A stretch of 64,000 nucleotides of DNA from Syncephalastrum monosporum B8922 (taxonomy: Eukaryota; Mucoromycota; Mucoromycetes; Mucorales; Syncephalastraceae): NCBI GenBank assembly GCA_000697355.1, contig JNEN01001227.1:1-64000 (forward strand), in the 5' to 3' direction. Positions 45,612-48,709 of this stretch are shown here, piece after piece; within the stretch, counting starts at the first letter, position 1; every line of letters begins with the position of its first letter. Both the position numbers and the translations under genes were made by a program. A model generated the notes under the pieces. That model was not told the origin of the DNA and did not search any database. It saw nothing but the letters and a program-made list of their open reading frames with translations.

Positions 45612-46526
45612 ATGGCAGCTGCGGCAACACCCGACCAACGATACGTGCGGTTAGAGAAACTAGGCGAAGGAACCTATGCGACCGTGTACAAGGGCAAGAG
45701 CCGGCTAAGCGGTGAGCTCGTAGCCCTGAAGGAGATACACCTCGATGCCGAAGAAGGCGCGCCCTCCACTGCGATTCGCGAGATATCGTTAATGAAAGAG
45801 CTGCGACACCAGAACATTGTGCGCCTGATTGATGTGATTCACACCGATGCCAAGCTCATCTTGATATTCGAGTACATGGATCAAGACCTGAAGAAGTTCA
45901 TGGATGCCACCGCCCGTGCTGGCCATTGCGCACTCGAGACGACCACCATCAAATCGTTCATGTACCAGCTCCTCAAGGGCATCGCCTATTGCCATGAGAA
46001 CCGCGTACTCCATCGCGACCTGAAACCACAGAACCTCCTCATTAATAAGCGGGGCGAGCTCAAGCTCGGCGACTTTGGTCTGGCGCGTGCATTTGGCATC
46101 CCTGTCAACACCTTTTCAAACGAAGTTGTCACGCTGTGGTACCGTGCGCCGGACGTGCTGCTCGGCTCGCGGATGTACTCGACCTCGATCGATATCTGGT
46201 CCGCAGGTTGCATTATGGCCGAAATGTATACCGGCCGCCCTCTTTTCCCTGGCACCACCAACGAGGACCAGCTGCAGAAGATCTTTCGCATGATGGGCAC
46301 CCCGACCGAACAGACCTGGCCAGGCGTCTCTCAGCTGCCCGAGTACAAGCCCACTTCGGGCATCTACCCGCCTCAGCATATCAATCAGATCTTGCCCACC
46401 ATCGATGCCGTTGGCCGCGACCTCCTCTCGCGCATGCTCCAGTATCAGCCCCAATTACGTATCTCAGCCAAGGAGGCCATGAGCCATCCTTACTTTAACG
46501 ACGTCAGATACATGCAATTCGATTAG
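45612..46526 (+). CDS. PHO85: Cyclin-dependent kinase PHO85
   Basis: A single uninterrupted exon of 304 residues. Kinase landmarks are [40 protein letters not shown] (PSTAIRE-type cyclin-binding helix), [60 protein letters not shown] and HPYF at the end. The [18 protein letters not shown] segment is typical of Pho85/CDK5 rather than Cdc28. Pho85 with different cyclins governs phosphate and glycogen metabolism, stress responses and cell cycle. Lack of introns contrasts with its neighbours. Confidence 0.96.
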
Positions 46527-46993
46527 AGAACATCTTGAAACATATACTTGCTTTTCTTCTTCCTTTACTTTTTCTCTTCTTTTCCCTCTCCTATCTAGCG
46601 GCGATTTGTCACAAAAACATACTCACACTCTTTGTCTCTTCCTCACCTAGCATAGTTTTAACCATCCTTTTGTCTTCCTTTCTGCTATCACTCGCCGTAT
46701 TATCTTATCCCTTTTTTTCTTTTCTTCCTTTTCTCTCTCACCATTAAGAAAGCCAACGTGGCACTTTTGCATGTATTTCCACTTCTAGATTTGTCATTGT
46801 GTTTTGTCAATTATCAGCATGACCCTTTTTGTAGAGAGTCCATCTGTCTCCCATACGCGCGCAAAAGGCACATACACTAAGGTAGAGTCGTGTTAGAGAA
46901 TAGGTAAAGCTAAGGTTTAATGGTAAAAAGCACTATGAACAGAGGAATAGACAAAAAGAAAAAAAAACAAATGAACTAAAATGCATAATCGAA
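46527..46993. other. Convergent 3' region of PHO85 and HAC1
   Basis: Pyrimidine-rich 3' untranslated sequence of PHO85 up to about 46750, followed by an A/T-rich stretch that should hold the HAC1 polyadenylation region. No gene. Confidence 0.5.
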
Positions 46994-47716
46994 TCATGCC
47001 AGGTCTTTCTGCAGGGCGTCCCAGTCGACAAATAGCTCGCCGAGTTGTTGGTCGGTAGATGTCGCGGGAGAGAGAGAACCGGCAGATGATGAGAGTGGGG
47101 AAGCCATGGGCGAGGGAAGGAACAGGAGTTGATCTTGGACGTTGACAGCCTCCGCTGCAGGGACAGGATTCTTGCAATATCCAACCACAGAAAGCGATAC
47201 ATAGACGAGCGAGAGAAAGAATGTGGAGTCCTTTGAATTTCCATTGGGTGGTGACGGTGACATAGTTGACGAGTTCAGTGGGGTTGCTCAGTTTCTCTCG
47301 GGTCTTTTTTCTTGCTTGCTTGCGTGTTGCTTTCATGGCCAGATGATCACGGATATCCTCTTCGCGATCCGTGCTGAATCGCAAAAGCCATCGGTGCCAA
47401 AGGTCAAATTGCTGTCTTTGCTTCCCAAAAGGGCGGCCAGCTGTGCTTGCATAAAAGCGTTTTGGGCCTCCAGCCACTGCATCCGTTCATGGATAGCTTT
47501 GTTTTCTTGTGCGAGCTGCTTATTGGACTCCTCCAGGTCAGCAACGTAGCGTCGCTTCTTGTCTCTGGATTCTTGCGCAGCTGCACGATTCCTCAAAATG
47601 CGGGCCTTTGCTTTTTGGTCCTTATCACATAGAGAAACTTGCGACTTGCGAACCCGATTGTTGCTGTTATTGCTGTTGCTGCTGCTGTTGTGTTTGCTGC
47701 TGCTGTTGTATGTCAT
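46994..47716 (-). CDS. HAC1: HAC1/XBP1-type bZIP factor of the unfolded protein response, with an Ire1-type intron
   Basis: Exon 1 (47374-47716) codes 114 residues plus one base: an Asn/Ser-rich start, basic region KARILRNRAAAQESRDKKRR and zipper RYVADLEESNKQLAQENKAI. Without splicing, translation runs to a TGA at 47335-47333, giving 127 residues. Exon 2 (46994-47157) codes AEAVNVQDQLLFLPSPMASP through LGELFVDWDALQKDLA, an activation-domain-like tail. No usable GT donor lies after the zipper except a poor GTGATC. Cutting at TTCAG|CACGG and CCCTG|CAGCGG, both at phase 1 in stem-loops like those cut by Ire1, removes 216 nt and joins the frames, giving 168 residues. The yeast counterpart activates ER-stress genes. 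Assignment rests on the bZIP sequence plus this RNA architecture. Confidence 0.88.
47151..47163 (-). promoter_or_regulatory. 3' splice-site stem-loop for Ire1
   Basis: On the transcript the loop is CTGCAGC, identical to the 3' loop of XBP1 as I know it, flanked by a short TCC/GGA stem; pairing beyond that is imperfect. The predicted cut is CTG|CAG, between 47158 and 47157. Confidence 0.7.
47158..47373 (-). other. Predicted non-spliceosomal (Ire1-type) HAC1 intron, 216 nt
   Basis: It begins CACGG and ends CCCTG, so it lacks GT-AG ends. Its removal joins TCA-G to CA-GCG in frame, creating SAAEAV. Retention brings in a stop after 13 codons. The length is close to the 252-nt HAC1 intron of budding yeast and unlike the 20-26 nt introns of hacA and XBP1. 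It contains the 19-nt segment complementary to the 5' leader. Known biology: Ire1 cuts both sites and tRNA ligase joins the exons. Confidence 0.8.
47237..47255 (-). promoter_or_regulatory. HAC1 intron arm complementary to the 5' leader
   Basis: The transcript reads GTCACCACCCAATGGAAAT, starting 118 nt into the 216-nt intron. It pairs perfectly over 19 nt with the leader arm at 47718-47736. Because it lies inside the removed segment, splicing would free the leader. Confidence 0.9.
47364..47382 (-). promoter_or_regulatory. 5' splice-site stem-loop for Ire1
   Basis: On the transcript, GCGATT and GATCGC pair around a 7-nt loop CAGCACG (cut after the G at loop position 3). The stem can extend to about 10 pairs with G-U wobbles (TTTTGCGATT with GATCGCGAAG). 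The geometry, a 6-bp stem plus 7-nt loop, equals that of XBP1. The loop departs from C-N-G|C-N-G by C instead of G at position 6. Confidence 0.72.
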
Positions 47717-47717
47717 A

Positions 47718-47736
47718 GTCACCACCCAATGGAAAT
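47718..47736 (-). promoter_or_regulatory. HAC1 5' leader arm complementary to the intron
   Basis: The transcript reads ATTTCCATTGGGTGGTGAC ending 2 nt before the ATG at 47716. It is the perfect 19-nt reverse complement of the intron segment at 47237-47255. In yeast HAC1, comparable leader-intron pairing stalls translation of unspliced mRNA. Confidence 0.9.
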
Positions 47737-48124
47737 AATGGACAAAAGGACAAAGTAGAGAAAAAGAGCTCAAGAACCGTAGAGAAAAAAGAAAACTGCG
47801 ATGGGGGAGACATTTTAAAAGACTGTTTGGCGGGGGGGCTGAGTCAAAAATAGAGTGGTAAGACAAGTGTTTGTCTGTGATTGGGCGCGTTCCCCTGACC
47901 TTCCATTCTTGGCTTCCTGTCTCAAGCACATGAATTTGCGGAACTCGCCGTGCCCATTTTGGGTTTGAGTTTGTTGATTCCGATGCCTTTGATGTCTTTG
48001 ATTTCCTCTCTCCTTCCGTATAAAAGGCGATCGGCCTTCCACAATCCTTTTTCTTTGAATCAAATCATCTTTTGCACCCCTCTCCCATTCTTCCCTGCTG
48101 TTATTCTTATGTTAATATCCTAAT
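47737..48124. promoter_or_regulatory. Divergent promoter of HAC1 and the 48125 gene
   Basis: A shared spacer of about 400 bp between the start codons. The plus-strand side has a clear TATA box (gtataaaagg, 48018-48027) about 100 bp before the ATG. The minus-strand side includes an upstream ATG at 47813-47811 that is out of frame with HAC1 and whose frame runs over the HAC1 start. Whether that ATG is transcribed is unknown. Confidence 0.5.
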
Positions 48125-48709
48125 ATGTGGTCAAAAAAACGCTCCAACGCCCCCTCTACCATCTTCTCCCGCGGTACCATGTCGCCTCGTCAGGTCGCCA
48201 CTAAGGCCTACACTCTTGCATGTAAAAAGCTTGACAAGGATGACCATCGGAAACGCCCCCATTACCACGTCCGCGAGCGAGTCTTGCTCAACAACACCAT
48301 GAACAAAGCAGAGGACGTGCTCAATAAACGAAATCCTCGCTTCAACCGGAGGGTCCTGGCTGCAGAAGACGATGAGCACGAATATGATCTAAATCCTCAA
48401 GAATCAGTCGAGCATGACTATTTCCATCACCACCAAAATAACCACCATGACTCCCCTCTCCATGAGCTCGTCAGCGACGACGAAGACGATGACGATGATG
48501 ACGACAAGGAGGAGCCCACTGACATGGATCACACGCAAGAACAACAGCAAAAGCAGCAGCAGCAGCAGCAAGATCATTTGATCCAGCATTCTTTTTTACA
48601 GCATCAGCATAACCCGATACCCTCTACAGATAATACCCTCTATAGCGACTGCAGGATCACAATCGTCCCCTCCCCCACACTTGTGTCTGGTACACCTACT
48701 CTCATCTAA
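48125..48709 (+). CDS. Hypothetical protein with acidic and polyglutamine regions
   Basis: A single exon of 194 residues. The N-terminal half is basic and probably folded (PRQVATKAYTLACKKLDKDD, then HYHVRERVLLNNTMNKAEDV and NPRFNRRVLAAED). The second half is low complexity: His-rich, an Asp run (DDEDDDDDDDKEE) and a CAG-coded glutamine run (about 48547-48571), ending in ITIVPSPTLVSGTPTLI. I recognise no family. It has a strong TATA box and shares its promoter region with HAC1. An internal ATG at 48179 is a possible alternative start. Confidence 0.7.
   Translation: MWSKKRSNAPSTIFSRGTMSPRQVATKAYTLACKKLDKDDHRKRPHYHVRERVLLNNTMNKAEDVLNKRNPRFNRRVLAAEDDEHEYDLNPQESVEHDYFHHHQNNHHDSPLHELVSDDEDDDDDDDKEEPTDMDHTQEQQQKQQQQQQDHLIQHSFLQHQHNPIPSTDNTLYSDCRITIVPSPTLVSGTPTLI

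Follow-up and report, generated by a model that had tools for sequence, protein, structure and literature searches.

A predicted leader-intron helix over the start codon of HAC1 in Syncephalastrum monosporum, a candidate attenuator of translation in Mucorales

Introns of the HAC1 type have reportedly been surveyed by Hooks and Griffiths-Jones (2011). In Saccharomyces cerevisiae, the HAC1 intron is of the Ire1 type, is 252 nt long (216 nt in the gene described here), carries an in-frame stop codon, and has one arm that pairs with the 5' leader (PMC6627864, PMC8881652). According to PMC8881652, the leader arm is C-rich, spans positions -38 to -20 of a 68-nt leader (roughly 30 nt away from the cap), and forms 15 to 16 pairs with intron positions 764 to 782; the pairing bases named there are C residues, and about 11 pairs suffice for the block. 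It is initiation that this arrangement is reported to block (PMC5114014, PMC8881652), in that ribosomes fail to load on the paired message and the block returns once the pairing is restored (PMC5114014). The stability of the yeast pairing is described as only marginal, perhaps to let the intron leave (PMC5114014), and the block is reportedly not lifted unless the intron is degraded (PMC6592678).

The HAC1 gene of Kluyveromyces lactis, a predicted attenuator, also has a long intron, part of which is complementary to the leader, and that of Hansenula polymorpha is likewise called a likely attenuator (PMC6116095, PMC10608004). In K. lactis, the leader arm (-52 to -28) lies upstream of the AUG, and these are budding yeasts, not Mucoromycota. 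In Aspergillus niger hacA, a base-paired leader is said to hinder scanning, but both arms lie in the leader, relief comes from a shorter transcript, and the intron is 20 nt long (PMC6627864). The HXL1 transcript of Cryptococcus neoformans is another Ire1-spliced bZIP mRNA, and its intron is described as having no complementarity to the leader (PMC6116095). For leader-intron pairing of HAC1 in Mucorales, no description was found among the matches listed when titles and abstract openings of the open-licence literature were searched (HAC1 with Mucoromycota, Mucor, Mucorales, or Rhizopus; Syncephalastrum UPR).

We analyzed a 64,000-nt stretch of contig JNEN01001227.1 of S. monosporum B8922 (the window). 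Its minus strand carries an unspliced reading frame of 127 amino acids (47333-47716) with a Pfam bZIP_1 domain above the cut-off. Sixty-eight protein homologues were found at E ≤ 0.001, the named ones belonging to Mucoromycota. The closest, P0001, was 95% identical over 60% of the query, and P0003, from Syncephalastrum racemosum, was 87% identical over 60%. Both the domain and the homologues bear out the HAC1 identity proposed in a first-pass annotation of the window, and the gene falls among HAC1/XBP1-type bZIP genes with HAC1-like relatives. The start codon was placed at 47714-47716, in the open frame with the bZIP domain, and P0001, P0002, and P0003 begin at the same residue. A second HAC1 was not found in the genome, where the next bZIPs matched at 7.5e-7 or weaker, and an Rfam search of 46900-48000 gave no match at E values up to 1.

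Ire1 sites, as in XBP1 and HAC1, are 7-nt loops of the form C-N-G|. Between 47790 and 46930, just two such loops closed by at least three pairs were present. The 5' site (47360-47386, minus strand) has a 10-bp stem and the loop CAG|CACG, with a predicted cut after 47374; the 3' site (47151-47163, minus strand) has a 3-bp stem and the loop CUG|CAGC, with a predicted cut after 47158. In whole-transcript folds, the 5' hairpin was stable (closing pairs at 0.91 to 0.96) and the 3' hairpin was disfavoured (0.00 to 0.04). Both predicted cuts fall after codon position 1, 216 nt apart, and the 216-nt Ire1-type intron of the first-pass annotation (47373-47158) stands up as a prediction. An in-frame stop codon lies inside the intron (47335-47333); its removal with the intron is predicted to yield a protein of 168 amino acids, in which the coding part of exon 2 (46994-47157, minus strand) is read once the message is spliced.

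Protein sequences of relatives were compared across the two predicted sites. The motif [DGN]SAR[IV] across the 5' site was kept by 59 of the 68 homologues, though the residues from R onward are intron; by eye, the nine others comprised three gene models that skip the stretch, one read in another frame, and five Mortierella-like sequences. At the 3' site, PAAE[AV] was found in 34 of the 42 intron-to-exon 2 ORFs of relatives. Seven gene models (P0004, P0011, P0012, P0016, P0018, P0039, and P0042) contained both the bZIP domain and a tail resembling that of exon 2. The predicted junction CDSA|AEV was present in two of them, P0016 and P0018, from Hesseltinella vesiculosa and Mucor lusitanicus, and the remaining five either were joined elsewhere or read straight through.

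The genome also encodes the proteins that such a substrate would need. Pfam domains identified an Ire1 kinase and RNase, with a likely membrane segment and luminal part upstream by eye, and a T4-type RNA ligase gene (RNA_lig_T4_1) was present. RtcB was not found in the genome by a search that detected 9 of 14 positive controls. PF08302, another Trl1 domain, had no match in the genome in a search that detected none of its controls.

The leader arm, AUUUCCAUUGGGUGGUGAC (47718-47736, minus strand; positions -20 to -2 of HAC1), is the exact reverse complement of 47237-47255, with a gap of 462 nt between the two. The exact 19-nt complementarity had been reported in the first-pass annotation and was confirmed, except that the arm had been said to end 2 nt before the start, whereas a single nucleotide (47717) separates it from the AUG. 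The helix was also longer than first claimed: the 19 bp are followed by an unpaired UA/CC (a 2x2 internal loop) and then by 7 bp, in which the leader arm extension UGACAUA (47709-47715, minus strand) pairs with 47258-47264, so that two bases of the AUG, the U and the G, lie within the helix. The full intron arm, UAUGUCA CC GUCACCACCCAAUGGAAAU (47237-47264, minus strand), thus pairs with 47709-47736 at 26 of 28 positions, with a predicted duplex energy of -43.4 kcal/mol. RNA folding of the message, earlier suggested as a check, predicted the 26 pairs in all five models of the transcript, with probabilities of 0.70 to 1.0 for the leader arm and 0.69 to 1.0 for its extension. When the exons were joined, the long helix was gone, and the leader formed other, shorter pairings.

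One arm is leader sequence; its partner falls inside the sole stretch that Ire1 would remove. As in yeast, the intron arm is complementary to the leader over more than 11 pairs (19 + 7). Unlike that of S. cerevisiae, the Syncephalastrum helix occupies -20 to -2 plus +2 to +8 of the message, has a G-rich leader strand and 26 pairs, and lies over the AUG. The Aspergillus arrangement also differs, since the second arm here is in the intron.

Chance complementarity could be weighed against several controls. The two 19-nt arms form the sole exact inverted repeat of that length in the 64-kb window, and theirs is the only exact inverted repeat of at least 14 nt with starts within 1 kb. For a 100-nt leader compared with a 216-nt intron, base composition gives an expectation of 8e-8 exact 19-nt matches. 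Among 144 control ORFs, which were called mechanically and include spurious ones, the start region formed at most 12 contiguous Watson-Crick pairs with a 216-nt downstream stretch (14 if G-U pairs were allowed) versus 19 in HAC1. Twenty 10-kb pieces of the same genome (200 kb, drawn from previously named contigs and not at random) contained no exact inverted repeat of at least 15 nt with arms 30 to 1,500 bases apart after a low-complexity filter had removed A/T and CTG runs.

Energies, by comparison, stayed within the range of the controls, a point in favour of chance. The folding energy of the whole mRNA was ordinary (z of 0.15; 11 of 20 shuffles folded as well). The raw RNAduplex energy of leader versus intron, -55.2, was reached by none of 1,000 shuffles, but 21 of the 144 control ORFs reached that value, and it is not distinctive. 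The exceptional feature is the unbroken helix only, not total stability. Given the composition expectation, the control ORFs, and the conservation of the intron core described below, we rejected chance as extremely improbable, in agreement with the earlier judgment that such a match was very unlikely.

Whether the leader arm is part of the message depends on the transcript start. The whole arm would be absent from the mRNA only if the leader were shorter than 2 nt, and it would be partly lost if the leader were shorter than 20 nt. A TATA-like element, TTTTAAAA (47813-47820, minus strand), is a possible core promoter, and together with a pyrimidine-rich stretch it fits a start that we infer to lie some tens of bases upstream of the leader arm. 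An out-of-frame upstream ORF of 48 amino acids (47667-47813, minus strand) overlaps the HAC1 start; it would matter only if the transcript began upstream of 47813, which would put the start above the TATA-like element.

We next compared the intron arm among relatives. No HAC1 DNA of relatives was found in the genomic and viral contig collections that were scanned, and the comparison was made with back-translated proteins and ORFs; the ORFs, called by other sources, extend from intron sequence into exon 2 along any frame that happens to be open. The test set consisted of P0042 and 42 ORFs (43 in total). Twenty-three were omitted as too short upstream or lacking the AAE landmark, leaving 20 informative ones with at least 25 residues upstream of the 3' site. 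The 10-nt intron core CACCCAATGG fitted 12 of these 20 within one mismatch, versus 1.4 expected from residue shuffles and a median of 3 over 207 intron 10-mers, although high scores, up to 15 of 20, were likewise obtained with pyrimidine-rich intron 10-mers because Ser/Phe/Leu-rich frames accommodate such sequences. When the core was extended to 13 nt, fewer ORFs fitted closely because the flanks vary by lineage.

The sequences that fit the core include Mucor and Apophysomyces models and Rhizopus-type ORFs. In the window, the three frames of the intron arm read SPPNGN, HHPMEI, and TTQWKF. The corresponding readings were NPPNGN in P0069 and NPPPNGS in P0042 (Apophysomyces ossiformis) for the first, IHPMEI in P0090 (Mucor lusitanicus) and HHPMET in P0089 for the second, and STTQWKL in P0088 for the third. 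Since the core is conserved across three different reading frames, it is not conserved as protein, and we rejected that explanation. By eye, P0084, P0087, P0088, and P0089 share their exon 2 part with P0012 from Rhizopus arrhizus. P0074, P0078, and P0083 begin with ATG-GAR, as expected if they had been called from the ATG of the core. The Rhizopus-type core differs at one base, where P0089 needs an A and P0084 and P0087 fit a G; a U in the Rhizopus leader would pair with both variants.

The core was not fitted by 5 of the 20 sequences (P0079, P0086, P0101, P0103, and P0105). P0086 has a Rhizopus-type exon 2 resembling that of ORFs in which the core is present. P0101, P0103, and P0105, which are Halteromyces/Absidia-like, keep the 3' site without the core, suggesting that the attenuator may be lost or rebuilt in that group.

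The recurrence of the core bears on a further possibility, that the start region was recently duplicated, in inverted orientation and without function, into the intron. The match at 26 of 28 positions is what a copied stretch would show. The presence of the core in Mucor and Apophysomyces models and Rhizopus-type ORFs indicates that it is not recent, however, and we rejected a recent duplication as very unlikely.

The leader side could be followed in fewer sequences. Four homologues, found by eye, extend upstream of the likely start, and the leader core fitted two of them; it was not seen in the other two, P0111 and P0033. In P0008, which resembles P0010 from Dichotomocladium, the upstream residues read HWVGTM versus HWVVTM in the window. 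This reading requires CAYTGGGTN, spaced from the ATG as in the window. P0113, which resembles P0054 from Umbelopsis, reads LGGGIKFIM, which is compatible with TTGGGTGGTG provided that L represents a TTG start. Shuffles matched as well in 0.8% of cases for P0008 and equaled P0113 in 1.6%, shares that are uncorrected for the four patterns tried per homologue. The four leader-extended homologues come without their own introns.

CCAAT is an NF-Y/HAP site. It occurs in both arms, in the leader copy on the strand opposite the mRNA, and the arms could therefore be two DNA-binding sites for transcription, with RNA pairing as a by-product. In keeping with this idea, CCAAT lies within the conserved core CACCCAATGG, and the leader copy is near the likely promoter. 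The match of 26 of 28 positions nevertheless extends far past CCAAT and into the coding start, and one of the copies is located within the predicted intron, close to the gene's 3' end. Moreover, among the matches listed in 27.5 Mb of genome, the 16-mer CACCACCCAATGGAAA was exact only at the two arms. We consider a pair of DNA-binding sites unlikely. Three further sites matched CACCACCCAATGGAAA with one mismatch (G000:C43:18510-18525, C137:133919-133934, and C143:18633-18648 among the matches listed).

A helix that forms need not act on translation, and the one predicted here could serve splicing or targeting, by bringing the mRNA to Ire1 or by shaping the intron. The helix is predicted to be stable, and the stalling structure of the yeast intron reportedly contributes to the targeting of HAC1 mRNA to Ire1 foci (PMC6116095). 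But the helix covers the AUG and has one arm in the leader, and an element for splicing only would need neither; we regard such a role without a translation block as distinctly unlikely.

The best explanation, and in our view a highly probable one, is that the long-range helix attenuates translation and is released when Ire1 splices the message. From the sequence, we infer the following course of events. The intron arm (47237-47264) would pair with 47709-47736, which comprises the final 20 nt of the leader together with the first codons, and the paired AUG would be hidden from the scanning ribosome, leaving the unspliced HAC1 mRNA silent. Upon ER stress, activated Ire1 would cut at CAG|CACG and CUG|CAGC and take out the 216-nt intron, and an RNA ligase would join the exons. 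The AUG would open as the intron arm leaves or is degraded, and the 168-amino-acid factor with a new C-terminal tail would replace the 127-amino-acid form. If so, one intron would both withhold part of the code and gag the message.

The first-pass annotation had left open whether such an attenuator is ancient or arose independently. Our comparison favours a combination of the two: the attenuator is most likely old within Mucorales, where the core occurs in several members, and probably separate in origin from that of yeast. Neither the arm position nor the strand composition agrees with that of yeast, and with the arm displaced and the G- and C-rich strands swapped, the two pairings were probably not inherited in common. 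A core shared among Mucorales combined with a different arm in yeast favours a separate origin, although loss and re-pairing between the two lineages may be an alternative. If the separate origin is true, fungi found this solution more than once, here in a phylum far from yeast.

A broader proposal, to which we give slightly better than even chances, is that Mucorales, and perhaps Umbelopsis-like relatives, share an order-wide attenuator independent of that of yeast, in which the Ire1 intron contains the conserved core CACCCAATGG and CATTGGGTGG lies at the AUG or close to it. Under the same proposal, the Syncephalastrum helix would mask the AUG and be too strong to open unaided, and release would need active unwinding or intron decay. 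A helix of 26 pairs sharpens the question of how an intron helix of such stability is released, and it makes release testable.

The tail of the unspliced form, RIAKRISVIIWP (47333-47373, minus strand), is identical in the Syncephalastrum-like P0001, P0002, and P0003 and could be a degron, like the intron-encoded tail of yeast. On the plus strand, divergent from HAC1, an ORF of 194 amino acids (48125-48709) has acidic and His- and Gln-rich stretches and matched no Pfam family at E values up to 0.001. On the other side, a protein kinase gene (Pkinase; 45612-46526, plus strand), CDK-like by eye, is transcribed towards HAC1.
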